From positions 248,001 to 312,000 of IMG/VR virus record IMGVR_UViG_3300034073_003340: a DNA stretch of 64,000 nucleotides. One strand, written 5' to 3'. Source of the DNA: a virus. A model generated the notes under the pieces. The model was not told the DNA's origin and did not search any database. It saw only the letters and a program-made list of their open reading frames with translations. Shown in pieces: positions 11,906 through 39,310 of the stretch. The position numbers were made by a program, and so were the translations under genes. Every line of letters begins with the position of its first letter. Within the stretch, counting starts at the first letter, position 1.

Positions 11906-12270
11906 CCAGAAAAGTTCAAAAGTCGGCAGATTTGCTGCTTTTTCTGGACCATGATAGATTCGGAACTAAGTCCAAAATATCGCATAGAGGCGGCTTTTCC
12001 GCCCAATGCTCTCTTGAGTGTTGTCATTGGTAGGCAACTAAGAAACCCCTTGCTCTCCTTACAATAAAGAGCAAGGACCTTTTGACCCCGAAGATCAACA
12101 ATCCACCAAGTTTTGGATTTGGATCTTCGTCCCACAAAGTGATTTTTGTGTCCGTTTGATATTTGTGCCCTAAGATTATGCCACTCCTCGGGATCAAGAG
12201 AATCGACACCATATCGCTCCATTAGGCGCTTACTGAAATGATTGAAGGCTCTTGATGATTTACAGGTCAT
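11902..12270 (-). CDS. hypothetical basic protein on a predicted leaderless mRNA
   Basis: 122 residues from an ATG at 12270, chosen because TTGAAT, a 16-bp spacer and TTAAAA end exactly six bases before it, as in nine other genes here; an ATG 30 bases further upstream lacks a ribosome site. Basic and Ser/Lys-rich; KTWWIVDLRGQKVLALYC suggests a strand hairpin. Family unknown. Confidence 0.6.
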   Translation of the reverse strand: MTCKSSRAFNHFSKRLMERYGVDSLDPEEWHNLRAQISNGHKNHFVGRRSKSKTWWIVDLRGQKVLALYCKESKGFLSCLPMTTLKRALGGKAASMRYFGLSSESIMVQKKQQICRLLNFSG

Positions 12271-12276
12271 AGGACA

Positions 12277-12304
12277 TTTTAACAGAAATTCTGAACTCAT
12301 TCAA
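12277..12304 (-). promoter_or_regulatory. promoter for a leaderless mRNA
   Basis: TTGAAT (12299-12304), 16-bp spacer, TTAAAA (12277-12282), six bases to the ATG. Confidence 0.6.
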
Positions 12305-12324
12305 GCTTTTGAATACAACCAAAA

Positions 12325-12354
12325 GTGACACCAGAGTTCTCCTTCTGTTATAGT
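12325..12354 (+). promoter_or_regulatory. promoter for the leaderless exonuclease gene
   Basis: GTGACA (12325-12330), 18-bp spacer, extended -10 TGT-TATAGT (12349-12354), then six bases to the ATG at 12361. Confidence 0.55.
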
Positions 12355-12360
12355 ATACTG

Positions 12361-12921
12361 ATGAACCCTTGGGAATACCTACTTTTTGATCTAGAATGCG
12401 ATGGATTCAAACCCAAGCGGATATGGTGTATCTGCATGGTGGATTTGATATCGCGGGAAAAGGCTAGCTTTTACGGACCAGAAGGAATAGCTGAAGCTAT
12501 TTTCAGGATACAATCAGCAAAGATGGTAGCCGGTCATAACATCAAGACCTTTGATATTAGGGTTATTGAAAAGATCACCGAAGGGGCAGTTCAGATTGAC
12601 CGCGCCAAGGTTCTCGATACCCTGTATCTTAGTAAGGCTCTGACCACCATGGACAGCCACAAGCTAGAGGATTGGGGTGAGATACTTGGTGTGCCCAAAC
12701 TGGATACACCATTCTCATTCTACAGGTTTGACCCTCGAATGATCCCTTACTGTGAGCGCGATGTGGAACTCAACCTACAGGTGTTCTTGGCTCTTTGGTC
12801 CCTGATGGAAAGTCGTCATGGAGAAAAGATTCCGCCCAAGTGGCAGATGCTGAACGAATATCGTTCAGCTCTTCCTATTGTCGGTCAAGGCCCAAACCAC
12901 TTTGGATCCGTCCTTCTTTGA
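12361..12921 (+). CDS. stand-alone 3'-5' exonuclease (T7 DNA polymerase exonuclease-domain type)
   Basis: 186 residues. LLFDLECDGF gives the first D-x-E metal ligands (Exo I), AGHNIKTFDI the Exo II region, SHKLEDWGEILGVPK the conserved helix seen in the T7 polymerase exonuclease domain, and YCERDVELN the Y-x3-D Exo III motif. All DEDDy residues are present. There is no polymerase domain, so it is either a free exonuclease or a remnant. It is one of the few plus-strand genes in this region, lacks a Shine-Dalgarno, and its ATG coincides with the predicted transcription start. Confidence 0.85.
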   Translation: MNPWEYLLFDLECDGFKPKRIWCICMVDLISREKASFYGPEGIAEAIFRIQSAKMVAGHNIKTFDIRVIEKITEGAVQIDRAKVLDTLYLSKALTTMDSHKLEDWGEILGVPKLDTPFSFYRFDPRMIPYCERDVELNLQVFLALWSLMESRHGEKIPPKWQMLNEYRSALPIVGQGPNHFGSVLL

Positions 12922-12954
12922 ACATCGGTTACGAATTTTCTGTGCCGTGGTTCA

Positions 12955-13248
12955 TCAGTCCTCTTCATCCAGATATCCCTCTGGGAGAAACGGATCCTCA
13001 AAGTAGCTGGAACCGCTTTCAGTAAGAGTGATGCTTCCTACGATCGTCTGACCTTCCGGCTTGACCACTGCTTCTCGGCCAAAGTCCTGCATGAGCTCGT
13101 AGGAAACTTCAACATATTGGCGAGGATTCTTGAGAGCAGCCTCGCAGGCCTTTCGATAGGGATCATCCTCGGACAGGAGATCGAGATCCACTGTCACATT
13201 ACAGGGACGCTCATTGAAGTAGTCTTCGGTAACGGTCACGATACGCAT
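12955..13248 (-). CDS. hypothetical acidic protein
   Basis: 97 residues with a very acidic C-terminus; ribosome site GAGGAAAAAC. Converges on the exonuclease gene. Unknown family. Confidence 0.65.
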   Translation of the reverse strand: MRIVTVTEDYFNERPCNVTVDLDLLSEDDPYRKACEAALKNPRQYVEVSYELMQDFGREAVVKPEGQTIVGSITLTESGSSYFEDPFLPEGYLDEED

Positions 13249-13262
13249 AGTTTTTCCTCTTC

Positions 13263-13808
13263 TTAAGGGATGATTTCCACGAATGCTCGCTTTTTCTTGG
13301 GACCCAGCTCATGACGCCCAAGTTCAAGAGGCTTGTCCCAGCCGTTCTTGCGGGCTTGGCCCACACTAGGGAAGAAGCCCAGGTCCACCATTAAGTGAGC
13401 CATGAGGGTTTTATTCTCAGCGGTCATGGCTGATATGCTGATCTGCTGGGCCTTTTGACGAGGGTTACCATCCTCACTAATGTCCCACCAGCCGAGTTCA
13501 GCACCTCGCTCAATACCCTGGCGATTTTTCTCTTTGATTCCTTCGAACCATTCAGCCTTGGTCTGGCCACCCCAGAACTCAAGATCGTCATCCCTGATGA
13601 TAATGAACGCCCGATCAGCAAATAGGAAGGTACAACGGTTCCCCGGACCAGGATCGTTCACAACGACGCCGTGGACTTCTTCAATTTTGTGAACCTTGGT
13701 CTCGATGAGATGACCCATCACCCAAATTTCTTCTTCCTCCTCACGAATCGTGTGGATTTGATGAAAGCCAGGGCTGATAAATTGTCCAGTGGGAAAGGTT
13801 ACTTTCAT
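13263..13808 (-). CDS. hypothetical protein
   Basis: 181 residues, ribosome site GGAGATCACA. A central strand-rich part (TFLFADRAFIIIRDDD) and a C-terminal segment FFPSVGQARKNGWDKPLELG that is reminiscent of S4-like RNA-binding helices, though weakly. Own promoter; probably co-transcribed with the gene downstream. Confidence 0.65.
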   Translation of the reverse strand: MKVTFPTGQFISPGFHQIHTIREEEEEIWVMGHLIETKVHKIEEVHGVVVNDPGPGNRCTFLFADRAFIIIRDDDLEFWGGQTKAEWFEGIKEKNRQGIERGAELGWWDISEDGNPRQKAQQISISAMTAENKTLMAHLMVDLGFFPSVGQARKNGWDKPLELGRHELGPKKKRAFVEIIP

Positions 13809-13829
13809 TGTGATCTCCTGTGACTTCTA

Positions 13830-13857
13830 TCTCTAGTAAGACAGGTCACAAAGTCAA
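13830..13857 (-). promoter_or_regulatory. early-type promoter
   Basis: TTGACT (13852-13857), 16-bp spacer, TAGAGA (13830-13835). Overlaps the end of the 53-residue gene. Confidence 0.78.
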
Positions 13858-14015
13858 CCTATCTCTTCGATGCTTTTGATCTTGGGTAGATCATACTTTG
13901 TGGAGAGCTGGGACATCAGCTTTCGCTTGGCCTGTGGCTTATTGAACGCGGCAATTTCGCGACTTTCACTACCACGGCTGGTGGAAAATGTGATGAGATA
14001 ACGGTTGATCTTCAT
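13854..14015 (-). CDS. hypothetical 53-residue basic protein
   Basis: Read from the reverse strand: ATG at 14013-14015 overlapping the TGA of the upstream gene, with GGAGATCCTG before it; its own TGA lies in the next -35 box. Lys-rich and probably alpha/beta. No family. Confidence 0.65.
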   Translation of the reverse strand: MKINRYLITFSTSRGSESREIAAFNKPQAKRKLMSQLSTKYDLPKIKSIEEIG

Positions 14016-14308
14016 CACAGGATCTCCTCAAGCTGCCGCTGGACCAGGATCTTGCCAGCGCGGCGATACTTGCGAATAGCTTCGCGACCGTTCTTCTTAC
14101 CAGGGCACTCGCTCCAAGTATCCAGCTTGAAGCCGCCCTCAGAATCGATCTGCGCCGTCTGGCACTTGTCAGAATGAATAGCGCCGTCGTTTCCACGAAG
14201 AACACGTCCAGCGAAGCGGAGGAAGCGATCGCCATGCTCGCCTTCGGCCAGAGCGCGAGCGCTCCAGCGAGCGTTACGAGGATCAACCTTGCGAACCGTC
14301 TTGCCCAT
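14015..14308 (-). CDS. hypothetical basic protein
   Basis: 97 residues, highly basic (many Arg, Lys), ribosome site AGGAGAAGACA. Probably binds nucleic acid on charge alone. First gene of a two-gene unit. Confidence 0.65.
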   Translation of the reverse strand: MGKTVRKVDPRNARWSARALAEGEHGDRFLRFAGRVLRGNDGAIHSDKCQTAQIDSEGGFKLDTWSECPGKKNGREAIRKYRRAGKILVQRQLEEIL

Positions 14309-14337
14309 TGTCTTCTCCTGTGTTTGCCTACATCACC

Positions 14338-14365
14338 TGTTTAACAGAAAAGGTGATAATGTCAA
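14338..14365 (-). promoter_or_regulatory. early-type promoter
   Basis: TTGACA (14360-14365), 16-bp spacer, TAAACA (14338-14343); the stop of the GNAT-like gene lies in the -35 box. Confidence 0.83.
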
Positions 14366-14868
14366 CCAGAAAGACGAGCTATCAAATTGCCTACAGCTTT
14401 TAGATCATCTGTAGTAAGATCGGTTTCCTGTCCCGTCGGCTTCAAACAAATTCTGGTTCGAATATGGGTGTCAGTTTCTTGATACAACTCTCGACCTTGC
14501 GAAATCTGCATATTCTGACTTATTAGGTTCTTTTTGTTGAACCCTGATAAGAAGACATCAAAGTCGCCGGATTTCCTCCAGCGATTCAAGCACGTCTTCC
14601 ATATAAACCCATACAGGCCCAGCCTGCGCCAACTTGGACGGGTATATGCTCCGATGCTGTAGATCTCTCGTTGGGCATAAATGGGAGCATAAAAGAGAAC
14701 TGACATCACCTCGTTGTCGTAGAATAGAGCCGCAAAGTAATAGAGGTTGCTGGCGGGCCATGTAGACGGCATTTTTCTCCGCGCCAATTCTCTGTTATAT
14801 CGAGCAAAAACATCAGCCACGTGTGGATAGTCAGCAATTTGACCAATCCTGAAAACAATCTCTGTCAT
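14362..14868 (-). CDS. GNAT-type N-acetyltransferase-like protein
   Basis: 168 residues. YSIGAYTRPSWRRLGLYGFIWK (from about residue 69, spanning just over 20 positions) fits the GNAT motif A strand, an R-x-L-G-x-x-G loop and helix that hold acetyl-CoA pyrophosphate; the following strand and FNKKN also suit the fold. Acceptor unknown. No Shine-Dalgarno: the ATG lies exactly six bases after the -10 box, so the mRNA should be leaderless. Confidence 0.65.
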   Translation of the reverse strand: MTEIVFRIGQIADYPHVADVFARYNRELARRKMPSTWPASNLYYFAALFYDNEVMSVLFYAPIYAQREIYSIGAYTRPSWRRLGLYGFIWKTCLNRWRKSGDFDVFLSGFNKKNLISQNMQISQGRELYQETDTHIRTRICLKPTGQETDLTTDDLKAVGNLIARLSG

Positions 14869-14874
14869 GCCCTA

Positions 14875-14902
14875 TTTCTAACATGATTAAACTGGTTGTC
14901 AA
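14875..14902 (-). promoter_or_regulatory. promoter for a leaderless mRNA
   Basis: TTGACA (14897-14902), 16-bp spacer, TAGAAA (14875-14880), six bases to the ATG at 14868. Confidence 0.75.
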
Positions 14903-14906
14903 ATCT

Positions 14907-15272
14907 TTAGTAACCAAAAAACTCACAAGCTTTGCCAACTTTCATTCTTTGGATCTTTGCTCCAGACGTGTCGGTTAGACGTCGCACGATTGCGGCTTCT
15001 CTAGTCAAAAGAGCGTAGAACCAAATCGAAATTGAACCATAGTCTATCGCGGTTTTTGTTTCGTTGTTATAAATCTTGTAATAACCTATTTCGTTGTGAG
15101 GATTCAATTTCCAGCAAATGCCGTTTATAGAATCCAGATCAATAGCCGTTCCAATAGTCCCAAGTATACCATTTTTGTTTTTGGACAGATGTCGCCATAC
15201 CTTCCTGGTGATCAAATCACCAGGAGACAAAAATATAGTGGTTCTGAAAATGGGGTAGGCTATCAAATCCAT
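14907..15272 (-). CDS. hypothetical protein
   Basis: 121 residues from ATG 15272, which overlaps the PTH2 gene end by 10 bases; no clear ribosome site, so translation is probably coupled. Begins MDLIAYPIFRTTIFLSPGD. Unknown family. Confidence 0.6.
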   Translation of the reverse strand: MDLIAYPIFRTTIFLSPGDLITRKVWRHLSKNKNGILGTIGTAIDLDSINGICWKLNPHNEIGYYKIYNNETKTAIDYGSISIWFYALLTREAAIVRRLTDTSGAKIQRMKVGKACEFFGY

Positions 15273-15631
15273 GGTTTCAAACTCGAAAGAATTTCTTCTC
15301 GATCTTTGACATTGATGGGACCGATGCCAAGGGCAGTGATCATGGGTCGCGGGAACACGGTGAGTCCAGCATCCTTGACCAAAAAGACTCCACATTTTGG
15401 CTTATAAATTCTGCTGAGACTGTGGAGGATTTCCTCATCTGCCTTCAAGCAAACTTTTGCTACCACGTCGGTATCAAGATATGCTTGAGCCATTGAGGGG
15501 AATCTGACTGTTGAATCAACAAAGGCATGGACGAAAGCATGGCCTATCTGCGCTCCCATCTTTCCTCGGTTTCCTTTGCTCTCCGAGATTGCCTCATTAC
15601 TTACAATGGCATAAAGCTTGATATCAGTCAT
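15263..15631 (-). CDS. peptidyl-tRNA hydrolase, PTH2 family
   Basis: 122 residues from the ATG overlapping the ArgRS stop (TGATG). GKMGAQIGHAFVHAF matches the PTH2 K-x-x-x-Q-x-x-H helix, and VKDAGLTVFPRP...TALGIGPI matches the C-terminal D-A-G-x-T and T-x-x-x-I-G-P signature. PTH2 enzymes release amino acids or peptides from peptidyl-tRNA; they are typical of archaea and eukaryotes and less common in bacteria and phages. Coupling to ArgRS fits a role in keeping tRNA usable. Confidence 0.88.
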   Translation of the reverse strand: MTDIKLYAIVSNEAISESKGNRGKMGAQIGHAFVHAFVDSTVRFPSMAQAYLDTDVVAKVCLKADEEILHSLSRIYKPKCGVFLVKDAGLTVFPRPMITALGIGPINVKDREEILSSLKPWI

Positions 15632-17238
15632 CACATCTCTTCAACTGTTTCAATGCCAAGAAGACCAAGACCGGTTTCCAAATAGGCATGTAGATAATAA
15701 ACAAACCCAACACGGCTCGGGTCAGTGGAAATTTGATACTTTCCATAATAAGCTGAGAACTTCTGAGCAATGGTGTAGAGGTATTCGGCTAATAGGTGAG
15801 GACTCAAACTATCCTCCACACGATTCATCACATCAGAAAAAGCCAGCAGGTCCAGGACTATTTGTCGCTCTTCATCGCAAGTAATCTTGATATTACCAAT
15901 ACCTACCGTCTGCTTATCCAAGATGCTCTTCATCCGAACCAGCTGATAAAGAAGATAAGGTCCAGTTTTACCCTCATGAGCGAGAGCACGATCAATGTCA
16001 TATGCGTAGTCGTTTGACCGCTTGTTTTGTAGGTCATTGAATTTGATAGCAGCAATCGCCACCTTACGAGCAATCTCAGGATCAGGATTTTTAGCTAGAG
16101 CCTTTTCGATTGCTTCATCGAGCAAATCGCGCAGCTTGGGAACACCTCCTGCGCGGGTTCGAAAAGGCTTGCCGTCAAACCCTTGAATAGTTCCAAACCC
16201 CGCGTGGGTGAGCTTCATAGTGTGGCCCATTTGCTTGGCAGCATCAAAGACCTGCCGAAAGTGAAGCCCCTGTCGCTGGTCCACCACGTAGATGATCTCT
16301 GTGGGGTTGGCTTGGGCGCGCTCCTGAATAGTCGCAAGATCAGTAGCAGCGTAAAGGTATCCTCCTTCGCTGTTTGTAAACATAAGCGGAGACAACGCAG
16401 GGTCTTTACAATAAATGACCTCGGCGCCTTCACTTGTCTTTAGAATATCCTTTGCCATCAGTTGTGATTCTAAGACCGGCAAAAGAAGAGCGGTATTGCT
16501 TTCACCATTGTATAGATCAAATTTTATATTGAGGATCTCTAGATCAGCCAAAACGCTCTTTTGTGTTGCTTCAACTATCTTACCCCAGATCTCAAGTAAG
16601 TCTGGATCGCCCAGTTGAAGTCGCCGTGTGAACTTCTGAGCTCCTTTCTTGAACCCTTCGTCGTTCTTGGCCCGATCGGCGGCAAGTGGATAGATCTTCT
16701 GTAGATGCTCAATTGTGTAATTGTTACCATCGGATGCCCGGAAGTCCTCATACATCAGAGCAGCAAGAACTAGACCCATCTGGTAGCCCCAGTCACCCCA
16801 GTGAATGTCGGTGATTACATCGTAGCCTTGATAGACCAGAATCTCCCGAAGACTCTTGCCGATCACCAGACTCCGCAGGTGACCAACATGCATCGCCTTA
16901 GCTACATTGGGGCCACCATAGTCGATAATTTTGAGTTGACCTTTGCGGTTAGTCTTTTGTGGAACTCGCAAGGCAATTTCTAAGATCGCGTTATTGGTGC
17001 GAGCATTGATAAAACCGGGTCCAGCAATGGTGAGGTCGAATCGAGGATCGTCAAATGCGTTGATTATCGTCTGAGCTATATCTCGAGGAGACTTACCCAG
17101 TTGCTTGGCTGACACTAGCGCACCGTTACACTGAAAATCGGCCAAGTCGGGACGGTCACTTCGCGTTACGACGGCGAAATGCTCGGGAATACCTGCGGCT
17201 TGGAAAGCCTTTGCGAGAGAATCAGCAAGAATTTTCAT
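15631..17238 (-). CDS. argS: arginyl-tRNA synthetase
   Basis: 535 residues, class I. Residues 109-123 read GPNVAKAMHVGHLRS, the ArgRS HIGH region; VDQRQGLHFRQVF and the RTRAGG segment are also ArgRS-typical. The N-terminal additional domain and the C-terminal anticodon-binding helices (DYAYDIDRAL..., EGKTGPYLLYQ) are present, so the protein looks complete. It charges tRNA-Arg; a phage tRNA-Arg(CCU) lies at 63.7 kb. No Shine-Dalgarno; the ATG sits six bases after TTAAAA, suggesting a leaderless mRNA. PTH2 is translationally coupled behind it. Confidence 0.96.
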   Translation of the reverse strand: MKILADSLAKAFQAAGIPEHFAVVTRSDRPDLADFQCNGALVSAKQLGKSPRDIAQTIINAFDDPRFDLTIAGPGFINARTNNAILEIALRVPQKTNRKGQLKIIDYGGPNVAKAMHVGHLRSLVIGKSLREILVYQGYDVITDIHWGDWGYQMGLVLAALMYEDFRASDGNNYTIEHLQKIYPLAADRAKNDEGFKKGAQKFTRRLQLGDPDLLEIWGKIVEATQKSVLADLEILNIKFDLYNGESNTALLLPVLESQLMAKDILKTSEGAEVIYCKDPALSPLMFTNSEGGYLYAATDLATIQERAQANPTEIIYVVDQRQGLHFRQVFDAAKQMGHTMKLTHAGFGTIQGFDGKPFRTRAGGVPKLRDLLDEAIEKALAKNPDPEIARKVAIAAIKFNDLQNKRSNDYAYDIDRALAHEGKTGPYLLYQLVRMKSILDKQTVGIGNIKITCDEERQIVLDLLAFSDVMNRVEDSLSPHLLAEYLYTIAQKFSAYYGKYQISTDPSRVGFVYYLHAYLETGLGLLGIETVEEM

Positions 17239-17244
17239 ACCACT

Positions 17245-17272
17245 TTTTAACTTGAAAGTGGTAGAAGAGCAA
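17245..17272 (-). promoter_or_regulatory. promoter for leaderless argS mRNA
   Basis: TTGCTC (17267-17272), 16-bp spacer, TTAAAA (17245-17250), six bases to the ATG at 17238. Confidence 0.55.
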
Positions 17273-17276
17273 GTGC

Positions 17277-17558
17277 TTAAAATCGCTGTAGTTTCAGCAG
17301 CATGGCAGACTTCAACCCATGCTCTTTAGCATGATAGTAAATCTCACCCGCGTAGTGGAACTGGACTAGCGCGCTATCCAGGTGATCGTTCAAATCCGCC
17401 CCATCAGCCAACAGATATTTGATGACTTTGGAGTTTTCCTCCCATGCCTGTCGCATATTCAAGCCGCGGAAACGACTTCCTCTGAAACCAATTATGTCAG
17501 CCTGTCGCGCTCGTAGACACGCTTCCTTGGTCTTTTCCCTGAGATCCTCGAGCGTCAT
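17277..17558 (-). CDS. hypothetical protein, tandem paralogue B
   Basis: 93 residues. Shares with the gene directly upstream an initial (D/E)DLRE helix, a central NMRQAWEE-like stretch and a C-terminal YYHAKEHGLKSAMLLKL, so the two are tandem duplicates. Overlaps the upstream stop (ATGA). Mostly helical; function unknown. Confidence 0.7.
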   Translation of the reverse strand: MTLEDLREKTKEACLRARQADIIGFRGSRFRGLNMRQAWEENSKVIKYLLADGADLNDHLDSALVQFHYAGEIYYHAKEHGLKSAMLLKLQRF

Positions 17559-19344: not shown

Positions 19345-19693
19345 ACTTGATGTTGCGGTGTGCCGAGATACACATGCCCTCCACTACGCCCTCCATTTCA
19401 AGCTGGAGACAATAGTGATCCTCTAGTGTAGGTGTAGTTTCAACTATAGCCAGGCTTCCACCGTCAATCTCTATCAGGTTTTTGACGAGAACGTCCTCGA
19501 GGACAAAGCCGTAGCCATGGAGAAGTTCGTAAGCCTTACTGTCCTCGTTGGGAATGGCAACTATGCGGGGCTCACCATCGGGATGATCTTCCGTTGGTTC
19601 ACCGATGACTACCCGAAGAGTGCTGCTGGGAGTCCATGACTCGTCAAAATCCGGCATGTCTTCGAGACCAATAAAAGGTTTGCGCTTTGCCAT
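19316..19693 (-). CDS. hypothetical acidic protein
   Basis: 125 residues from the ATG overlapping the upstream TAA (TAATG). Acidic and strand-rich; begins MAKRKPFIGLEDMPDFDE. No family known. Confidence 0.65.
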   Translation of the reverse strand: MAKRKPFIGLEDMPDFDESWTPSSTLRVVIGEPTEDHPDGEPRIVAIPNEDSKAYELLHGYGFVLEDVLVKNLIEIDGGSLAIVETTPTLEDHYCLQLEMEGVVEGMCISAHRNIKYGDDSERST

Positions 19694-20328
19694 TAGACCA
19701 AATCCCAATCCGGATCCTTGACCGATTGACGGGCAAAGAACTTTTCGATCATCGCCTTGACATCAGCAAACAGCTTGGGATCGCCCTCGGTCAGGCCAGG
19801 CAGAACATCGGCCTTTTCCTGAACCCACTTGCGAGCGAAGCCAGGATCATGCGCTACGATGCTGGGCAGGTTGCTCTTGATGTCTGCGAGCTTGACTGTC
19901 TTGCGCTCAGGCGTAGCCAGCCAAGCGTGTTCCTTGTCCAAATTGCGACGGAAGGCACGATTGCCATCTTCGGGCTTGCTGACATCGGAGACTTCAGCGA
20001 CACCTGCGACAATCTCTGCCGCGACATCGTTACCAAACTGTTTGCCGAAGAATTCCCGAATGGCACCGAGGCCCTTGGTAGTGTCCTCTTCGCAGTCATG
20101 TAGCAGGGCAACCGCGACATTGATGGCATCATTGTGGATGCTCAGGCTCACCATTTTGGCCACCTGGATGGGGTGGACTTCATAGTGAGCTTTGGAATAT
20201 TTGCGACGCTGCCCGCCCAGGACCGGGTCAGGCTTCAGCGCATGGTTGCGGTGCGCATCGATCATGAATTCCATTGCCGCAACGACAATGGGATCCTGCA
20301 TTACATCATATGTGGTTTCTTGGTTCAT
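19693..20328 (-). CDS. HD phosphohydrolase, SpoT/MESH1-like
   Basis: 211 residues. HYEVHPIQVA supplies the first His, ALLHDCEEDT the HD pair plus the ED pair typical of RelA/SpoT hydrolase domains, and further on KTVKLADIKSNL resembles the K-x-AD-x-x-N motif. MESH1-like enzymes remove pyrophosphate from (p)ppGpp or phosphate from NADPH. A phage copy could blunt the stringent response; the substrate is inferred. No synthetase domain. Leaderless: ATG six bases after TATAAC. Confidence 0.82.
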   Translation of the reverse strand: MNQETTYDVMQDPIVVAAMEFMIDAHRNHALKPDPVLGGQRRKYSKAHYEVHPIQVAKMVSLSIHNDAINVAVALLHDCEEDTTKGLGAIREFFGKQFGNDVAAEIVAGVAEVSDVSKPEDGNRAFRRNLDKEHAWLATPERKTVKLADIKSNLPSIVAHDPGFARKWVQEKADVLPGLTEGDPKLFADVKAMIEKFFARQSVKDPDWDLV

Positions 20329-20334
20329 AACCCT

Positions 20335-20362
20335 GTTATAACACAGGGGTTTAGGTTGTCAA
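20335..20362 (-). promoter_or_regulatory. promoter for a leaderless mRNA
   Basis: TTGACA (20357-20362), 16-bp spacer, TATAAC (20335-20340), six bases to the ATG at 20328. Confidence 0.8.
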
Positions 20363-20640: not shown

Positions 20641-20891
20641 AACATTTTGAACTCCATAGCAATTTGGGGATCTTTGAATAACCATAATCCTGCTACTGGA
20701 ATTAGATAATCGTTACGGGCTTCCTTTGTTCCTCTCTTCAAGCCTCGAGAATCTGCCCACATTCTACGGTCAGCAGCGGCTTCAGAAGTCACTACGCTAC
20801 ATGCCACAGGAATCCAATGTGCGGTTTCCTCATAGATTGGATAAGCGGCAATTATGCGCTCGTGCCAGTTTTCAGCTTTGTTTGACATCAA
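20631..20891 (-). CDS. hypothetical protein, DP-AM-FKL-W family
   Basis: 86 residues, ends LFKDPQIAMEFKMLWG; paralogue of the next gene. Starts by overlapping the upstream HD gene by 4 bases. Confidence 0.65.
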   Translation of the reverse strand: MMSNKAENWHERIIAAYPIYEETAHWIPVACSVVTSEAAADRRMWADSRGLKRGTKEARNDYLIPVAGLWLFKDPQIAMEFKMLWG

Positions 20892-21544
20892 ACATCAACC
20901 AGAATTTCATCTGGGCAGTCTTCAAGAATAACCCGCTCCAACTCCAAGTTGGCTCTGGCAATCTTCATCTTCTTACGAGCCTGATGCGTGTAAAAGATGG
21001 TTCTGTAGTCAATTGATGCCAGGAAGGTTCTTCGACCAGCAAGATACTGATCCCTACCAAACTTGGAATACTCTCGCCAGATGTTGCGCGAATACTCAAG
21101 ATAGTGATGGTCGGGACAGAGGAAAACGTGCATATCAGCATCGTTCATCATCTTGAACTGATAGGGTAGATCGTTATCTACTTTATGATTTGCGGTCATG
21201 CGAATCATATCAGCAACATTGACAATAGACGATGCGCAGGCAATTCGGCGACGCTTGGCGTAATCCAGCCAAGCCTTGGCTGACATCTCTTCATTGTCTT
21301 TTCTATCCACATCATAAACTGAATCGTGGTAAAAAAGGGCTAACACAACTAATGCCTGCCAGCCATAATGAATATGAACGAACTTGACACATTCGTAAAT
21401 GTGTTGCCAAGTATGATAGAAACGACCGGGAGAGCTATAAGCCTTACGGAGTCTGAAATATTCTTTCCAATCAGGCCAAAGGCCCAGTTCCTTGTGAGCA
21501 AAGAACCAGGCCGGGGCCAACACCATGTCAAATTTCAGACTCAT
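20888..21544 (-). CDS. HD-domain metal-dependent phosphohydrolase
   Basis: 218 residues. RFYHTWQHI supplies the first metal-binding His pair, LALFYHDSVYD the HD dyad and MMNDADMHVF the distal Asp, the order seen in the predicted HD phosphohydrolases of the COG4339 type. Substrate unknown, possibly nucleotides. ATG lies six bases after TAGGTT (leaderless). Confidence 0.82.
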   Translation of the reverse strand: MSLKFDMVLAPAWFFAHKELGLWPDWKEYFRLRKAYSSPGRFYHTWQHIYECVKFVHIHYGWQALVVLALFYHDSVYDVDRKDNEEMSAKAWLDYAKRRRIACASSIVNVADMIRMTANHKVDNDLPYQFKMMNDADMHVFLCPDHHYLEYSRNIWREYSKFGRDQYLAGRRTFLASIDYRTIFYTHQARKKMKIARANLELERVILEDCPDEILVDV

Positions 21545-21550: not shown

Positions 21551-21578
21551 AACCTAGCGCAATTTGCCTATGAGTCAA
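21551..21578 (-). promoter_or_regulatory. promoter for a leaderless mRNA
   Basis: TTGACT (21573-21578), 16-bp spacer, TAGGTT (21551-21556), six bases to the ATG; overlaps the LysRS stop codon. Confidence 0.72.
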
Positions 21579-24176: not shown

Positions 24177-24657
24177 CTACTCAGAGTCAATTTTGAAAGG
24201 ATTGCTATTTTCGGCAAGAATATTCAAAATTGCCTGTCTGATGTCAGCATTTTGCTTGGCTTCTTTGATAATAGTAACCGAAAGAACGGTAAGCCAGAAC
24301 TCCCGATCATCGCCGTAGCCATATGGTCCACGATTACGTGTCGTTTCTTTTATCAGTCCTACTTTTTTTCAAGAGGTCAAAAGCACTTTCGATCTCTGGT
24401 TTCCGTAGCCAATAGCTGGCATAACTATGTGTTTCTCCGGTTACCGCTTCTCGGATCTCCTGGCCATTTGCCATTGTCGGATCCGATTGACCTGACAGCT
24501 TTTTATAGACACATTGGTCTTTGATTGCCATAAAGATTGATAGAGCCGTCTGATGAGATCCGTAGGTTGATTTACCAAACATCCAACGGTAATCGGAGTG
24601 AATAAACACTCGAGTCTCAATCATACGTTTGACAAAATCTGCGGTCTTTTCGGTCAT
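24177..24657 (-). pseudogene. hypothetical gene with +1 frameshift at a seven-A run
   Basis: From ATG 24657 the frame runs 107 codons to a TAA at 24334, but at a run of seven A on the coding strand (24363-24369) dropping one base joins it to a second frame that continues as VGLIKETTRNRG... through GYGDDREFWLTVLSV to a TAG at 24177 (about 159 residues). The downstream frame has no usable start of its own yet looks fully protein-like. Either a real frameshift, a programmed slip or a homopolymer error. The joined LLKKVGLIKE reads like a winged-helix element. Leaderless-type promoter. Confidence 0.6.
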
Positions 24658-24663: not shown

Positions 24664-24691
24664 TTGTTAGCACAGGTTGATTTTTTGTCAT
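24664..24691 (-). promoter_or_regulatory. promoter for a leaderless mRNA
   Basis: ATGACA (24686-24691), 16-bp spacer, TAACAA (24664-24669), six bases to the ATG at 24657. Confidence 0.55.
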
Positions 24692-30494: not shown

Positions 30495-30806
30495 TTAGGA
30501 CCAGCTTCTCGGCGCAGCTGGATTATTCCAGTCCGTACCTGCACCCAAAGTCAACATTACTTCAGGGACAGCGACATTGGACTCCCCGGGTTCAGGTAGA
30601 TATACCGACCACGTGACGTTCTGAATGAGATAGCTTGTTCCGTTGACGAAGATATATTTTCCTTCATCAGGGACTTGTGTCATCAACATTTGCCCCATTG
30701 GGGCAAAGAGGTCTGGGTTTGGATTGCCAGCATCTAAATCCTGTCGATGTTCGTCCATGGTTCTACGTCGACGAAAGTGGACGATAATATGAGGATCAAG
30801 TGTCAT
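30495..30806 (-). CDS. hypothetical protein
   Basis: 103 residues, overlapping the upstream TGA (ATGA). A strand-rich middle (GKYIFVNGTSYLIQNVTW). Unknown. Confidence 0.62.
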   Translation of the reverse strand: MTLDPHIIVHFRRRRTMDEHRQDLDAGNPNPDLFAPMGQMLMTQVPDEGKYIFVNGTSYLIQNVTWSVYLPEPGESNVAVPEVMLTLGAGTDWNNPAAPRSWS

Positions 30807-31003
30807 GAAGCAAAATCCGGATCAATAGCTCTGGGGTTTTCAACCGATGCGTCCCAACCCATACGATAATCCGCTGATCCGTTTTCATAACGACTCAACA
30901 GTTCTAGATGACCGTCTGCTCTATAGCGGGTTCCATCCATAAGTCCAGCCTGATATTCGGCTTGATTAACAGGCTGCGCGGTTTGAGAAATTAACTGTTT
31001 CAT
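30803..31003 (-). CDS. hypothetical protein on a predicted leaderless mRNA
   Basis: 66 residues, Tyr- and Gly-rich with two similar stretches (EYQAGLMDGTRYRADG and ADYRMGWDASV). No Shine-Dalgarno; ATG six bases after TAGCTT. Unknown family. Confidence 0.62.
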   Translation of the reverse strand: MKQLISQTAQPVNQAEYQAGLMDGTRYRADGHLELLSRYENGSADYRMGWDASVENPRAIDPDFAS

Positions 31004-31009: not shown

Positions 31010-31037
31010 AAGCTAACGGTAAGGATATTTTAGTCAA
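31010..31037 (-). promoter_or_regulatory. promoter for a leaderless mRNA
   Basis: TTGACT (31032-31037), 16-bp spacer, TAGCTT (31010-31015), six bases to the ATG at 31003. Confidence 0.72.
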
Positions 31038-32950: not shown

Positions 32951-33000
32951 TTTTAATACCTAAATTGACTATATGGATATTATGAACATAGGATTATCCT

Positions 33001-34255: not shown

Positions 34256-34568
34256 GAGGCGTAAATCTCCACGTGTGGCTATTTTCGGGAGTCCAGGATA
34301 GTTTGGCTTTCAACATATCGCGTCCACAGGTTTCCCAACAAGCCAACATACTCATAAAAGGCTCTGAAAGGAATATATCAATCATCTCCTCACCAATTGG
34401 ATTTGGATTGTCATTAGCGGCGATAAACTGTTTCTGGAGATCTTCAAATATCTCATTAAAAGAAGTCCCGTTTAAGCGATTCGCGGCCCTGCTCAACGCC
34501 TCATAACTGAAATTTTGAAATCGGTTGAACGTATCCTTTGATTCGTCGCTGCCACCAAAACCGGACAT
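34248..34568 (-). CDS. hypothetical protein
   Basis: 106 residues, helical; overlaps the previous stop (TGATG) and the next GTG. Resembles small phasin-like helical proteins in composition (FQNFSYEALSRAANRLNG) but length and motif do not settle this. Confidence 0.6.
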   Translation of the reverse strand: MSGFGGSDESKDTFNRFQNFSYEALSRAANRLNGTSFNEIFEDLQKQFIAANDNPNPIGEEMIDIFLSEPFMSMLACWETCGRDMLKAKLSWTPENSHTWRFTPRG

Positions 34569-35125
34569 CAGTCGTTCCTTCTACCATTCCAGGTTTTCAG
34601 CTTGAGGCGATTGTCAGGCACACCTAGCCAATGATCCCTGACCTTACCAATGGTAAGGTGTAGACCAAAGTCATAGGGAAGATCAAACTCCTTGCGAATA
34701 TCCAAGAGCCAAGGACTCTTGACTTCAACAAAGAAGAACTCACCTTTTGCCAATTGGACATTAGGGCTATAGAGGAAGTCAACCTCTCGTCCCTGATACT
34801 TGCCCCACATAGCATCCTTTTGCCACTTGGGAACCTGGCGAAGATCATTCCTGCCACGAATGACACTGACATGAGCATCACCGCTGGGCTGAAGAATTCC
34901 ATGGCCTTCAGCGCCGGTCATGTTCATAAGGTTGCGATCCACGAACCAACGGAACATTCGAGTGATTTCACGATCGACCTCGAGGACCAGCCAATCTTGC
35001 GTATTCTTCTTGTTCTTACGCTTGGGGTCATAGACTAGCACGCCACGGCTTTTATGCCATCCGGCCTCGCCCAGCATCAGCTTGGGCTTTAGGGCTTCGC
35101 GCCTTCCAGGGGTCAACGTGTTCAT
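34568..35125 (-). CDS. 2H-phosphoesterase-like protein
   Basis: 185 residues. Two H-h-(S/T)-h motifs, HVSVIRG near residue 86 and HLTIGKV near residue 160, are spaced as in the 2H superfamily (2'-5' RNA ligase, cyclic phosphodiesterase, and the swiss-army-knife RNA-repair group). These act on 2'-5' or cyclic phosphate ends of RNA or nucleotides. A role in tRNA end repair or in removing cyclic oligonucleotide signals is possible. Leaderless: ATG six bases after TAAAAC. Confidence 0.65.
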   Translation of the reverse strand: MNTLTPGRREALKPKLMLGEAGWHKSRGVLVYDPKRKNKKNTQDWLVLEVDREITRMFRWFVDRNLMNMTGAEGHGILQPSGDAHVSVIRGRNDLRQVPKWQKDAMWGKYQGREVDFLYSPNVQLAKGEFFFVEVKSPWLLDIRKEFDLPYDFGLHLTIGKVRDHWLGVPDNRLKLKTWNGRRND

Positions 35126-35131
35126 GTCTTG

Positions 35132-35159
35132 GTTTTAACACCAGTTCTTATCCTGTCAA
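35132..35159 (-). promoter_or_regulatory. promoter for a leaderless mRNA
   Basis: TTGACA (35154-35159), 16-bp spacer, TAAAAC (35132-35137), six bases to the ATG at 35125. Confidence 0.82.
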
Positions 35160-35160
35160 G

Positions 35161-35187
35161 GAAAAAGGGCAGATTTCTCTGCCCTTT
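35161..35187 (-). terminator. rho-independent terminator
   Basis: Stem AAAGGGCAGA/TCTGCCCTTT with GAAA loop and T tract on the minus strand, 27 bases after the gene at 35214. Confidence 0.82.
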
Positions 35188-35213
35188 TCCAACTTTGGTG
35201 CGACCCAAAGGAT

Positions 35214-35588
35214 TCAAACAGCTTCGACAAATTTCTTCTTGGAGACGTCCCAATCATAGGACTTGCCGGCCATGCGCAGAGCAACCAGAGCGTCGAGGTT
35301 GATGTTTCGGAAGGCACCCTTTTCCATCTCTTCAACGCTTTTGCCCGCGTTGTAGGGAGCCTTGGGGTCCATCTTCTGCATGTCGAAAACCGTCAGGAGG
35401 TTTTTGCTTGCCGGATCATAGGACTGGCCAACTCCCTTGACACCCTTCTTCACGCCGCGACGACAATTCATAGTGCGCAGGGAGGGCTCGCCGGGCTTTG
35501 CCGTGCGCTTGACAAAGTCCACAGTGAACAGTTGTCCACCCTTGGTATTCTCGAGGAACTGTTCCAAAGTCATTTCGGCTCGCGCCAT
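35214..35588 (-). CDS. hypothetical early protein
   Basis: 124 residues starting MARAEMTLEQF behind GGAGATCGCAC. Basic; KGGQLFTVDFVKRT and LRTMNCRRGVKKG suggest an SH3-like or small beta fold seen in phage proteins. Probably highly expressed, with its own promoter and terminator. Confidence 0.7.
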   Translation of the reverse strand: MARAEMTLEQFLENTKGGQLFTVDFVKRTAKPGEPSLRTMNCRRGVKKGVKGVGQSYDPASKNLLTVFDMQKMDPKAPYNAGKSVEEMEKGAFRNINLDALVALRMAGKSYDWDVSKKKFVEAV

Positions 35589-35616
35589 GTGCGATCTCCC
35601 TAAAAGTTGATACATA

Positions 35617-35988
35617 TCAATTAACAGAGAAATCGCACCTTGTCAACCGACCCTTAGACTTTTTTCGTCTTTTTGAACTATTGACGGTTTTCTTCGGTGG
35701 CATCTTAATTCCACCGTAGCCAATACTCTGAACTTGGGCTCCGTTCTTAGCAGTAACCACAAGATCATGATCACATGCGTTGAGCAAAGCTCTTACAGTA
35801 GCAAGCTGTGGAAAGCGCGTTTCCCTGTAAAGCCACTTGCTGATCGTCTGAGGGGTCGGGCCGCCCCTCTCATGAACCCGTTTGAGTGACTGACCACTGT
35901 TGATCATAACAGCAATGCTGTCGTCGCGAAGATCCTCAAGGTCGACAAGAGGCTTTCTCGCGCCCGGTTCATCTAACTTCTTAGCCAT
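35617..35988 (-). CDS. HTH (XRE-like) DNA-binding protein
   Basis: 123 residues. LKRVHERGGPTPQTISKWL is a helix-turn-helix, and FPQLATVRALLNACDHDLVV matches the last helix of Cro/C1-type repressors. C-terminus is basic. Probably a transcriptional regulator; ribosome site GGAGATCGAAAC follows directly behind the ParB-like gene. Confidence 0.75.
   Translation of the reverse strand: MAKKLDEPGARKPLVDLEDLRDDSIAVMINSGQSLKRVHERGGPTPQTISKWLYRETRFPQLATVRALLNACDHDLVVTAKNGAQVQSIGYGGIKMPPKKTVNSSKRRKKSKGRLTRCDFSVN
35619..35646 (-). promoter_or_regulatory. early-type promoter
   Basis: TTGACA (35641-35646), 16-bp spacer, TTAATT (35619-35624); lies within the end of the HTH gene. Confidence 0.65.
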
Positions 35989-36000
35989 GTTTCGATCTCC

Positions 36001-37329
36001 TTAAAGGCTTGGCAATTCCCACTTGATTCGGATACCCCGAATCTTCTTGTTCTTCTGAAAGGCCAAAAATCCTCGGAAGAGAACTTCTACCTTCTGCTCT
36101 CTTACCAAGGAACTGAACGCGATCAGCTTTTCGCGAGTAATATAAGCTGGACTGTCAGCAGAGATATTCACTCCAGTTATGACCTGATCTAGGAACGTTT
36201 GGGCAGCAACAGGATCCGCTTTGCTCATAGCATAGTGACAAAACGCCATAACACTTGGCGGGGCTAGACGTTTGCTCTTATTACCATGCTTGTATGGATA
36301 TTGGCTAGAGATGTCGAGTTGTTTGTCAGAGCGTGCTCGCTCGTAAATCTCACTAGCTGTGATGCGATTCATATAGGCAAAGTTCTGCCCTTGGTTACGC
36401 TCATAGGCTAAAACAAACCGGGCAAGAGCAGCCAGAGTGGTTGGTTGAGTAAATCCGTCAACGCTTAGATGATCATGGGCTCCTCTATTGGCACCAGTAT
36501 CAACTGTTCTGCGAGTGTTGCGCTCAATACCAAATACAAAGAGCACCGGGATGCTCTTACCTGTCTCGATTACAGCAAGGCTACGATGCTGACCATTGTT
36601 GACTAGGCCTTCCTTGCTGATAATGATTGTTTCGCCGTTGAAGTCCCAGCGACCTTCGTTGATGTCCGAGACGTACTGACTCAATTTAGAGGTCCGAACC
36701 GGACGATTTCCGTCGTTATGGTCGATAAGGACCCTAGCTAGAGCTGGGGTCATGTCAACCTTTTGGGTATGAACTTTGGCTTTGCCTTTTTGGACCTGTG
36801 ATTCATACCAAAGAGCTGCTCCTTCATCAGTATCCAAGTCAGCCTGGATAGCATTATCGGCTTCAACCGCCATAATGTCTTCGGAGAAGTGTGTTCCGGG
36901 GAAATGAGTTTCAAAGGAAGTCTCTTCCTTTAGAGCTTCAATATCAAGAAAAGTGCTTGTCACTGCCGTAGGTAGTTCGTCGATAAATTCAATCGACTCA
37001 CGATCTGGATTGAACCTGCCCTGGAGGCGTAGAGCTTTCAACTCCATCCCAGGGGTGGTTAATCCTGTAAGATGATGCTCACCAAGACTATTGGCATAAG
37101 CAAATCTGCCTTTTACACTAGTCGAGAGCTTTACACCTTCAGTCCCAAGATCTAGACTAAGAATGCCGTCTTTATGTGACATCTTAATTCTCTGATGTTC
37201 TTCTGGAACGTTGACCAGAAATTCCTTGCTAACTCCAACTGACCATACCAGTCTTGAATGGGATTTGCTTCCCATTCTAACACTACTGAGTCTCAGGTCG
37301 ATAGGGGCTTGAAACACATTTTTAGTCAT
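36001..37329 (-). CDS. ParB/sulfiredoxin-fold phage protein
   Basis: 442 residues. The N-terminal 190 are strand-rich and unassigned. From about 205: RPVRTSKLSQYVSDINEGRW, then INGxT-like FNGETIIIS, GLVNNGQHRSLAVIETG and FGIERNTRRTVDTG, the pattern of ParB-like (ParB/Srx fold) phage and actinobacterial proteins where NGQHR is the nucleotide-binding GxxR box. ParB-fold proteins may bind CTP, act as nucleases or modify nucleotides; which applies is unknown. The helical C-terminus includes AYERNQGQNFAYMN. Confidence 0.75.
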   Translation of the reverse strand: MTKNVFQAPIDLRLSSVRMGSKSHSRLVWSVGVSKEFLVNVPEEHQRIKMSHKDGILSLDLGTEGVKLSTSVKGRFAYANSLGEHHLTGLTTPGMELKALRLQGRFNPDRESIEFIDELPTAVTSTFLDIEALKEETSFETHFPGTHFSEDIMAVEADNAIQADLDTDEGAALWYESQVQKGKAKVHTQKVDMTPALARVLIDHNDGNRPVRTSKLSQYVSDINEGRWDFNGETIIISKEGLVNNGQHRSLAVIETGKSIPVLFVFGIERNTRRTVDTGANRGAHDHLSVDGFTQPTTLAALARFVLAYERNQGQNFAYMNRITASEIYERARSDKQLDISSQYPYKHGNKSKRLAPPSVMAFCHYAMSKADPVAAQTFLDQVITGVNISADSPAYITREKLIAFSSLVREQKVEVLFRGFLAFQKNKKIRGIRIKWELPSL

Positions 37330-37564
37330 TGGTAGGTTCCGATCTCATAGTTGATATTACGGTTTTAACAAAGGTCTTTTCAGCAGCTTGTTTGTCGCTT
37401 TGGAATTCATCCAAAGCTCGTTGTAGAGCCGGATTAGTCTCAGGGTCAAAGAACAGTTTTATGACAGTACTGGCCAGATATAGCTTACTCATACCAGTCT
37501 GTTTGGCAATAACATCTAGGGCCTGGCTGGCTTCTTTGGTTATGGCAACGCTGGTGTGGCTCAT
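37322..37564 (-). CDS. small ribbon-helix-helix-like protein
   Basis: 80 residues. TSVAITKEASQALDVIAKQTGMSK looks like a strand then two helices of a ribbon-helix-helix DNA-binding unit. Overlaps the start of the ParB-like gene by 8 bases. Possibly autoregulatory. Confidence 0.55.
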   Translation of the reverse strand: MSHTSVAITKEASQALDVIAKQTGMSKLYLASTVIKLFFDPETNPALQRALDEFQSDKQAAEKTFVKTVISTMRSEPTND

Positions 37565-37573
37565 GGACGTCTT

Positions 37574-37984
37574 TCAATAAATTGATATTGCTGGAACAGG
37601 TAGACGCACCGGTGTCATATCATGAACTGTGGAATGTGGTTTGAGGTAAAATACCTTCTTCAATTTTCCAGCCGGTTCCAAAGTATATCGGGTTCGTCGG
37701 TCAAGCCCAAAAGTTTCAAACTCTTGGAGTGGGATACAAAGTTGCCCAATAGTCTTGTGTTGGTAGAAATAAGGCACCATTGTTTTCTCAAGACTGGCAT
37801 TTTTTGAGAAACGGAGGAATGTGTTGTCTTTGACGTTTTCAAAGACAACATAACTACCAAGAGATGTCATAATCCTATGACAATGTATATTGAGATGAAT
37901 CCTGACTCGGTTAGAATCATACAGCGGATCCAGTTGTCTGGCTACTGATTTTCGCCAGTCCCAGTTTCTATAATCGCCGCCCAT
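37574..37984 (-). CDS. hypothetical protein
   Basis: 136 residues, basic, strand-rich. TTGACA (38037-38042 region) and a 16-bp spacer place a promoter about 50 bases upstream. No recognised family. Confidence 0.62.
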   Translation of the reverse strand: MGGDYRNWDWRKSVARQLDPLYDSNRVRIHLNIHCHRIMTSLGSYVVFENVKDNTFLRFSKNASLEKTMVPYFYQHKTIGQLCIPLQEFETFGLDRRTRYTLEPAGKLKKVFYLKPHSTVHDMTPVRLPVPAISIY

Positions 37985-38059
37985 ACTGATCCGATCTATA
38001 AGTTGGCGTTGTCAGCTAACTTATAGATTTGCTATAGATTGTCAAGAACTTGCTTATAG

Positions 38060-38497
38060 CTAGATTATAGCTTTGATTTTAGACTCCAGGATCTCATCTA
38101 CTATAGCAAAAAGCATTGCTTTTTGAACGATCTGTAGAGCCGTGGTGTTTCTATTATGTTGACTATTCAGAGACAGAAAGAGGCCGCATGTCTGATAGCT
38201 GAAAAGATCAAACGATTCGATATTTTCAAAACTAACCTTCATATGAAGGCCGTTGAGCTTGAGTAGATTTACCTCCAAGCTCTTTTTAAAATCTCTTATG
38301 AACCAAGGCCCTCCGGCCATTGCTATCATATTTTTGTCAGCAAAAAATCGGCCTTTGGGCTCACGCTTGTGTAGCTCAAATACGAGGTAAGGGGTTGACA
38401 GGCAAATAGTCTCATTGGAGTCACTGAATTTGCTAGTGAAGCTATCGCCCCTGAAAATTCGGGCAGTGTCTGTTATGTTTCTTGTTAGCTTGCTCAT
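38060..38497 (-). CDS. hypothetical protein
   Basis: 145 residues. Mixed fold, C-terminal helix AMLFAIVDEILESKIK. Lower GC than neighbours. TATAAA lies 7 bases before the ATG, and a long hairpin at 38516-38554 stands just upstream. Ends in TAG. Confidence 0.62.
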   Translation of the reverse strand: MSKLTRNITDTARIFRGDSFTSKFSDSNETICLSTPYLVFELHKREPKGRFFADKNMIAMAGGPWFIRDFKKSLEVNLLKLNGLHMKVSFENIESFDLFSYQTCGLFLSLNSQHNRNTTALQIVQKAMLFAIVDEILESKIKAII

Positions 38498-38515
38498 GTG
38501 TCACTTTATAAGATA

Positions 38516-38554
38516 ATGACGGGGAGAACAAGCCAAAGCCGTTCTCCCCGTCAT
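38516..38554 (-). terminator. strong hairpin upstream of 38497
   Basis: Fourteen-base-pair stem ATGACGGGGAGAAC/GTTCTCCCCGTCAT with an 11-nt loop. Ends the preceding transcript, or sits in the leader of the next gene. Confidence 0.6.
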
Positions 38555-38555
38555 C

Positions 38556-38784
38556 GTTAGCCTGTTTACCCAGCATCTAATCTCATATCGGGTCGCAAGT
38601 CAATACGGAGATCAAACACTATACCACATGCCTATGCCGAGTCCAAGAACCTCCTAAGAGCCCCAGTCTAGCCTATCCCCACTGCTAAGGCAACAACGGG
38701 AACCCCTCAACAGGCCACTTCTTATCATAATCTTTTAGCATCAATAGTGCAAGAAGTTTACCTATGTGAACCCAGTATCTGCGT
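38556..38784 (-). other. 229-base stretch without a confident gene
   Basis: Contains two promoter-like sets on the minus strand (TTGGAC-17 bp-TATAGT and TTGACT-17 bp-TTAGAT). An 18-codon ORF (MLKDYDKKWPVEGFPLLP) is open but lacks a ribosome site. Confidence 0.4.
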
Positions 38785-39276
38785 TCAGCCGTGCTTTTTC
38801 GTCGACGAGTGTGTGAAAAGTGCTACACCAGAAAGTGCTAGTCCCATAATAGGGACAGTGAATAATCCAAATCTAACAATGAGCATCACTGCCGTGCTGA
38901 CTTCGCTATATGTCAGGTAACCTGCAAAATGAATTACCATGGTTATCATAAACAAAGCAAAACATAGAGCAAAAGATGAAGCAACAGCTATAGCCCAACT
39001 TGCTGCGATATCTTCCGCAAGGCTTGCTGGTTTTTCCGGTTCTTGAAAATGCTCGACGACTTTCCATCCCGACTTTTGGGCCAATTCGTCGGCGTAACGA
39101 TCTGCCATAGCCTTGTTGTTGGTGTTGAAGATCACTTTGATATGAACCCCCTCGGGGGTTTCAAAATATGCTTCGTAGGATTCAGGAGCCGATGTGTTGC
39201 CTGAACTGGGTATGAATACGGGGATCAGCTGAGGACCGTTGGGACCAGTAGTCATACCAAAAGTTATCTGTGTCAT
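38785..39276 (-). CDS. two-helix membrane protein on a predicted leaderless mRNA
   Basis: 163 residues. A soluble N-terminal part (ligand-like strands around YEAYFETPEGVHIKV) and two hydrophobic segments at about 90-115 and 125-152. ATG lies six bases after TATCAT. Function unknown. Confidence 0.65.
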   Translation of the reverse strand: MTQITFGMTTGPNGPQLIPVFIPSSGNTSAPESYEAYFETPEGVHIKVIFNTNNKAMADRYADELAQKSGWKVVEHFQEPEKPASLAEDIAASWAIAVASSFALCFALFMITMVIHFAGYLTYSEVSTAVMLIVRFGLFTVPIMGLALSGVALFTHSSTKKHG

Positions 39277-39282
39277 GTGTCA

Positions 39283-39310
39283 ATGATACACTTTGATACA
39301 TGGAAGTCAA
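39283..39310 (-). promoter_or_regulatory. promoter for a leaderless mRNA
   Basis: TTGACT (39305-39310), 16-bp spacer, TATCAT (39283-39288), six bases to the ATG at 39276. Confidence 0.8.

Follow-up and report, generated by a model that had tools for sequence, protein, structure and literature searches.

A predicted leaderless gene class, conserved and ATG-specific, beside Shine-Dalgarno-led genes in a clade of giant phages

Can a giant phage express a whole class of its genes from messages that begin directly with the start codon, and do so from the same promoters that serve its leadered genes? The question is raised by a 64,000-nucleotide (nt) window comprising bases 248001–312000 of the 435,856-bp virus record IMGVR_UViG_3300034073_003340, a giant phage of ~436 kb (phage A). 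In this window, a sequence-only reading had singled out ten ATGs (12270, 14868, 17238, 20328, 21544, 24657, 31003, 35125, and 39276 on the minus strand and 12361 on the plus strand), all of which we found to be present. Phage A was compared with IMGVR_UViG_3300034072_000926 (B), IMGVR_UViG_3300031088_000008 (C), three partial relatives (P, Q, and T), the cultured Sinorhizobium phage Phosso (D; PV764938), and Agrobacterium phage Atu_ph07 (E; NC_042013); these genomes are kin and hence not independent samples. B and C share 56–61% protein identity with A, and the C-terminal part of the large terminase is closest to those of Phosso (61.8%) and Atu_ph07 (57.2%), followed by PA5oct and related Pseudomonas jumbo phages (47%); a near-identity DNA search among named phages gave no match. 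Because Sinorhizobium and Agrobacterium are the hosts of the nearest named phages, and given the promoter style, the host of phage A is likely an alphaproteobacterium.

A two-block promoter model, trained on the -35 and -10 blocks alone in non-coding DNA and not including the start codon, gave a consensus of about TGGTTGACA, with a spacer of 16/17 bp and a -10 block of TGCTAnAAT (also given as TTGACA and TGnTAnnnT). The distances from the -10 block to ATG peaked sharply at a single position, 6 nt, and rose more broadly over ~20–36 nt. Compared with the mean of offsets 8–17, ATGs at offset 6 numbered 22 vs 3.3 in phage A (Poisson p ~1e-11), 31 vs 2.8 in B (p 6e-22), 27 vs 2.4 in C (p 2e-19), and 14 vs 2.6 in Phosso (p 7e-7). 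In phage A, 17 of the offset-6 ATGs are the in-frame start of a predicted gene (vs 0.8), and exact matches to TTGAC-N17-TA-N10-ATG exceeded those to a reversed control in each of the three genomes searched (A, 18 vs 1; B, 21 vs 0; C, 13 vs 0). No offset-6 spike was found in Atu_ph07 (2 vs 3.3), despite 103 intergenic TTGAC-N17-TA sites with the same spacing, or in the first 220 kb of RaK2. The spike is specific to ATG: when six related records were pooled, offset 6 held 138 ATGs, as compared to ~20–45 at offsets 8–24, while GTG (22) and TTG (16) were at or below background and showed no spike. An in-frame predicted gene is opened by 82 of these 138 ATGs, vs 1–8 at offsets 8–17. Chance is ruled out by the spike statistics and by the reversed-pattern and GTG controls. 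The class is found genome-wide and is not confined to 12–39 kb of the window, where it had originally been placed.

The promoters present features of the σ70 type (TTGACA, 16–18 bp, and a TATAAT-like element with an extended TG), and intergenic TTGAC-N17-TA sites in phage A are concentrated at spacers of 16 (117 sites) and 17 (42 sites), vs 18–32 sites at other spacings; a search for a phage-encoded σ factor found no σ70 region 2. In the leadered promoters of all five phages (A–E), an A occupies offset 6 in 52–60% of cases (a purine in 68–76%), clearly above both neighboring positions; since this A peak falls at the same position, the A of the ATG is likely the predicted +1 of the leaderless class. 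A T4-type late promoter (TATAAATA) was considered as a feature separating the two classes and was rejected as too rare (7–8 per genome in A–C). The leadered starts of Atu_ph07 form a sharp cluster 30–33 nt after the -10, a leader length more fixed than in the other phages.

Comparison of orthologues places the start of coding at these ATGs. Across 70 pairs of leaderless orthologues, mismatch frequencies at codon positions 1/2/3 were 0.31/0.22/0.55 in codons 2–6 and 0.54/0.52/0.54, with no periodicity, upstream of the ATG; purifying selection begins at codon 2 of leaderless genes and is absent upstream. An in-frame stop lies ≤60 nt upstream in 66 of 71 leaderless genes, and alternative starts preceded by a Shine-Dalgarno (SD) sequence were found upstream in 1/71 and downstream in 2/71 (background 10/178). 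Mis-called starts are ruled out by the codon-position analysis and by this lack of an excess of SD-preceded alternatives. Among four Phosso sites inspected, two (6673 and 72331) match starts annotated by the depositors, and no annotated gene starts at the remaining two.

The earlier statement that none of these genes has a ribosome-binding site holds in general: a core SD 4-mer is found at -15 to -4 in 9 of 71 leaderless genes, vs 295 of 313 leadered genes. Before the 313 leadered starts of phages A–C, AGGAGA was found in 147 cases and GATCGA in 78, and the leader motif AGGAGATCGA, common to the three phages, reaches beyond a plain SD sequence in its ATCGA part. The GGAGATCGA leaders that had been seen on other genes are real, with 14 occurrences in the window (e.g., upstream of leadered genes at 2631, 3408, 3845, 11848, and 28038, minus strand). 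Lower 5′ structure was rejected as a class-specific feature, as the two classes share it (mean -4.4 vs -4.9 kcal/mol). The proposal that a leaderless class and an SD-leadered class coexist behind the same promoter type is supported by both sequence and comparison.

Leader state was compared only where both orthologues have a recognized promoter, and an identical distance in orthologues was not counted as evidence, as the 5–7 nt window imposes it. Orthologues largely share their state: 18 both leaderless, 3 mixed, and 37 both leadered for A–C (table 18, 1; 2, 37; p = 8e-12); 18, 5, and 33 for A–B (18, 2; 3, 33; p = 1e-9); and 12, 4, and 44 for B–C (12, 2; 2, 44; p = 5e-9). The gene for cysteinyl-tRNA synthetase (CysRS) is leaderless in all six related records. 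Switches of state also occur; the gene at A 28030 has a leader, as does its orthologue in C, but the orthologue in B is leaderless, and a window gene (13263–13808, minus) with a 15-nt leader carrying AGGAGATC has leaderless orthologues in B and C. Phage A and Phosso share the state in almost no gene (1 of the 12 leaderless genes of A for which Phosso has an orthologue), suggesting that the class endures although individual genes enter and leave it. Judged by sequence, the predicted leaderless layout in this clade is real, conserved, and ATG-specific. The leaderless glutamyl-tRNA synthetase (GluRS) promoter (A 214915, B 349709, and C 286349, all minus) presents TAGACA as its -35, with CACTTTG conserved within the spacer, which suggests a regulated variant promoter.

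These patterns are very probably explained by host σ70-type promoters that make leaderless mRNAs beside SD-led mRNAs, with the ATG at the predicted +1. Two leader arrangements would share one host-type architecture (σ70, extended -10). For most genes with such a promoter, the RNA would start ~15–30 nt before the start codon, with AGGAGA(TCGA) preceding that codon; in ~20–35 genes, the ATG would lie exactly at the predicted RNA polymerase start, with no space for a ribosome-binding site, so that the mRNA would begin 5′-AUG and undergo leaderless initiation, a routine process in the probable alphaproteobacterial host. All 171 leaderless transcription start sites of Sinorhizobium meliloti are at AUG (PMC3616915), and the ATG-only spike thus fits an AUG requirement of leaderless initiation. 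Caulobacter crescentus has 375 leaderless mRNAs, with translation efficiency similar to that of leadered mRNAs (PMC4117421). The median intergenic gap is 40 nt before leaderless genes vs 67 nt before leadered genes, a difference of about one leader; these shorter gaps fit compaction in a host with ribosomes that handle leaderless mRNAs well, as in Caulobacter, and intergenic compaction on a leaderless-tolerant host may be the simplest reason for the leaderless genes.

Several points weigh against the explanation by leaderless initiation. The leaderless 5′ ends and initiation sites are predictions from sequence, genes were called with a simple hexamer model, and we infer the actual +1, translation from a 5′-AUG, and the host, the last from relatives of the phage. 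Four of the ten window sites have weak boxes, and four of the ten have no comparative support. Furthermore, 36 of the 71 offset-6 genes lie <60 nt behind a same-strand gene, and a read-through mRNA could therefore also carry them. The promoters might thus be real but secondary, with translation proceeding mostly from longer read-through mRNAs and the adjacency reflecting promoters squeezed into short gaps. We consider this improbable, as compaction alone predicts neither a one-base spike at offset 6 nor ATG specificity nor the loss of SD sequences; starts on a long mRNA would be without SD sequences, in contrast to the 94% of leadered genes that have one, and in 9 of the 71 genes the upstream neighbor is divergent, which precludes same-strand read-through from that neighbor. 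It is harder still to credit that an ATG at +1 is a by-product of a polymerase preference for A (or AT), with translation really starting elsewhere. Leadered promoters do carry A at +1 in 52–60% of cases and T at +2 in about one third; however, Atu_ph07, which served as a control, has the same A at +1 (60%) and T at +2 (57%) without an excess of ATG, while in the pooled records more than half of the offset-6 ATGs open in-frame genes and codon-position constraint starts there. This by-product reading was therefore rejected.

A third proposal would supplement leaderless initiation from host-type promoters rather than replace it. The leaderless genes would form a regulated early set, translated before phage-encoded initiation factor (IF) 3, IF1, and bS21 accumulate, with IF3 subsequently favoring SD-led mRNAs. 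All five phages (A–E) encode IF3 and bS21 (in phage A, G000 361983–362234 and 358984–359121, respectively), A–D but not E encode IF1, and no IF2 was found in the five. Leaderless translation tends to be inhibited by IF3 and favored by IF1, IF2, and initiator tRNA (PMC9031893), and a phage-run switch is thus possible. The leaderless products identified are also non-structural, including CysRS, GluRS, possibly ArgRS, RNase H, an R2K ATP-grasp enzyme, a UvdE-like nuclease, a cytidylyltransferase-like protein, an HD phosphohydrolase, an AAA_33 kinase, and many proteins without assigned function. However, non-structural enzymes are likewise found among the products of leadered genes behind this promoter type, and these genes are functionally similar (e.g., a gyrase B-like protein, NAPRTase, a MoxR-like AAA protein, RNA ligase, and a Bax1-I protein), and the leaderless class has different members in the window phage and in Phosso. 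Moreover, Atu_ph07 has IF3 and bS21 but no leaderless class, which indicates that these two factors alone do not predict it. On balance, we regard an early programme of this kind as doubtful. The label "early" that had been attached to the window genes is not borne out, as nothing sets the leaderless genes apart temporally; because neither sampled set, leaderless or leadered, holds recognized virion genes, early timing appears neither shown nor excluded for either set, and function does not seem to separate the classes. IF1 was also considered as a correlate of the leaderless class; it fits the five phages (absent only in Atu_ph07), a number of related genomes that cannot establish the relation.

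The complete phages carry about 55–60 tRNA genes, with ~59 in phage A (G000 about 304.9–326 kb, L015, L016; window 44007–62892, minus). A C1 × A72 mismatch and an A11:U24 pair mark bacterial initiator tRNAs. Phage A has four tRNAs with a CAT anticodon, two of them with the C1 × A72 mismatch; one (315494–315570) has both this mismatch and an A11:U24 pair and closely resembles a bacterial initiator tRNA, with these features read by eye. As a correlate of the leaderless class, an initiator-like tRNA was rejected: A and C have one, Atu_ph07 has a similar one, none was found in B, and the case of Phosso is unclear. Two tRNAs with a CTA (amber) anticodon were identified (window 45258–45333, minus; L006:19130–19204, minus), and TAG makes up ~6% of predicted stops; amber suppression or recoding in phage A is possible. 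Phosso carries an annotated ribosome recycling factor (401193–401765) near a threonyl-tRNA synthetase, an additional phage translation factor.

Among the ten starts of the window, the fixed promoter-to-ATG geometry that had been proposed was confirmed for six (14868, 20328, 21544, 31003, 35125, and 39276), which fit TTGAC-N17-TA-N10-ATG exactly, while boxes at the other four are weaker or shifted. The layout is kept in at least one relative for orthologues of 12361, 14868, 20328, 21544, 31003, and 35125. TTGACA-N16-TATAAC (20335–20362, minus) lies 6 nt before ATG 20328, with an identical layout in B and C; the predicted leaderless gene that follows (19693–20328, minus) encodes an HD-domain phosphohydrolase of 211 amino acids (aa), and its orthologues are leaderless in both phages. 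TTGACA-N16-TAAAAC (35132–35159, minus), 6 nt before ATG 35125, precedes a predicted leaderless gene (34568–35125, minus; 185 aa; PHROG 12204, no assigned function) that is leaderless in B and C; a viral-contig search with this protein found nothing. TTGACA-N16-TAGAAA (14875–14902, minus), 6 nt before ATG 14868, has its layout kept in B, C, and Q and precedes a predicted leaderless open reading frame (ORF) of 168 aa without assigned function (14362–14868, minus). At 21544, TTGACT-N16-TAGGTT (21551–21578, minus) lies 6 nt before the ATG of a predicted leaderless gene (20888–21544, minus; 218 aa, no assigned function) that is leaderless in C and without the leaderless layout in B. TTGACT-N16-TAGCTT (31010–31037, minus), 6 nt before ATG 31003, precedes a predicted leaderless ORF of 66 aa (30803–31003, minus), leaderless in C at an offset of 7. 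For the candidate leaderless ORF at 39276 (38785–39276, minus; 163 aa), with TTGACT-N16-TATCAT (39283–39310, minus) 6 nt before the ATG, the sole orthologue, in C, is SD-leadered.

The shifted or weaker boxes include GTGACA-N18-TATAGT (12325–12354, plus), with an 18-bp spacer and 6 nt before ATG 12361; its layout is kept in B and C, and it precedes a predicted leaderless ORF (12361–12921, plus) of 186 aa with a weak match to the RNase H superfamily/exonucleases. At 12270, the -35 is TTGAAT and a better -10, TAAAAT, gives a spacer of 17 and 5 nt to the ATG (TTGAAT-N17-TAAAAT, 12276–12304, minus); this is a weak case, the layout is not conserved in orthologues, and the candidate leaderless ORF (11902–12270, minus; 122 aa, no assigned function) is weakly supported. 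A weak promoter-like TTGCTC-N16-TTAAAA (17245–17272, minus) lies 6 nt before ATG 17238 of a possible leaderless gene (15631–17238, minus) encoding an arginyl-tRNA synthetase (ArgRS) of 535 aa (Pfam PF00750, 3e-71), and ATGACA-N16-TAACAA (24664–24691, minus) lies 6 nt before ATG 24657 of a predicted candidate leaderless ORF of 107 aa (24334–24657, minus); no orthologue was found for comparison of either start. A well-supported leaderless gene at 922 (minus) had been missed by the sequence-only reading; TTGACA-N17-CAGATA (929–957, minus) lies 6 nt before its ATG, C (offset 6) and Q (offset 7) are leaderless, and the window holds the 5′ part (1–922, minus) of this predicted gene, which encodes a 579-aa protein with a cytidylyltransferase-like domain and continues left of the window. 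Elsewhere in the window, a GOLLD RNA, a large ornate non-coding RNA, was found at 51655–52084 (minus; Rfam RF02032, 164 bits). The large terminase gene (L002:1642–4221, minus; G000 1642–4221) presents an apparent intein-like insertion, and RaK2-like terminases align with it at full length, insertion included.

To our knowledge, phage leaderless mRNAs are usually single cases, such as λ cI, transcribed from PRM as an mRNA beginning at AUG, and the sole known class is in Thermus phages; the original study of the leaderless transcripts of Thermus thermophilus phage phiYS40 is reportedly that of Sevostyanova et al. (2007). In a summary account of phiYS40 (PMC3594737), middle and late transcripts are leaderless, with host IF2 going up and host IF3 going down; as predicted for phage A and its relatives, many phage genes are on leaderless mRNAs beside leadered ones, and initiation factors are implicated. 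The leaderless class of phiYS40 is temporal and the initiation factors come from the host, whereas phage A and its relatives appear to use one promoter type for both classes, encode their own IF3, bS21, and (usually) IF1, show gene-by-gene conservation, and probably infect an alphaproteobacterium. S. meliloti and Caulobacter, the likely host background, begin transcription at the A of AUG in a substantial set of genes, as is predicted for the window phage, though these are cellular genomes with mapped 5′ ends and the phage genome has predicted ones. In Deinococcus-Thermus, genes described as having a "-10 region adjacent to ORF" also have a -10 that abuts the ORF and gives a leaderless mRNA (PMC12340547); these belong to another phylum, and phage A and its relatives have a full -35/extended -10 at 16/17 bp. 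λ cI, named as a leaderless mRNA (PMC9031893), is a single regulatory gene, unlike the genome-wide class described here. According to one paper, leaderless transcripts are common among phages (PMC5312081). Huge phages are known to encode IF1, IF3, S21, tRNAs, and tRNA synthetases (Al-Shayeb et al. 2020, PMC7162821); that study treats SD usage only, and the word "leaderless" is absent from its text. We found no description of a leaderless class in jumbo or huge phages in the open-access literature, a scope that makes this absence weak evidence.

Start-site annotation that relies on SD sequences may mis-start leaderless genes. The class extends to Phosso, a cultured phage of a laboratory model bacterium for which a leaderless transcriptome is available. 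It also offers a concrete pair of mRNA substrates, leaderless and SD-led, with which to assay why huge phages carry initiation factors. It is conceivable, though in our view unlikely, that this clade of giant phages runs a two-channel translation programme in which IF3, IF1, and bS21 (and, in some, an initiator-like tRNA) shift ribosomes between leaderless and SD-led mRNAs; if so, leader length, and not promoter type, would set the time of translation.

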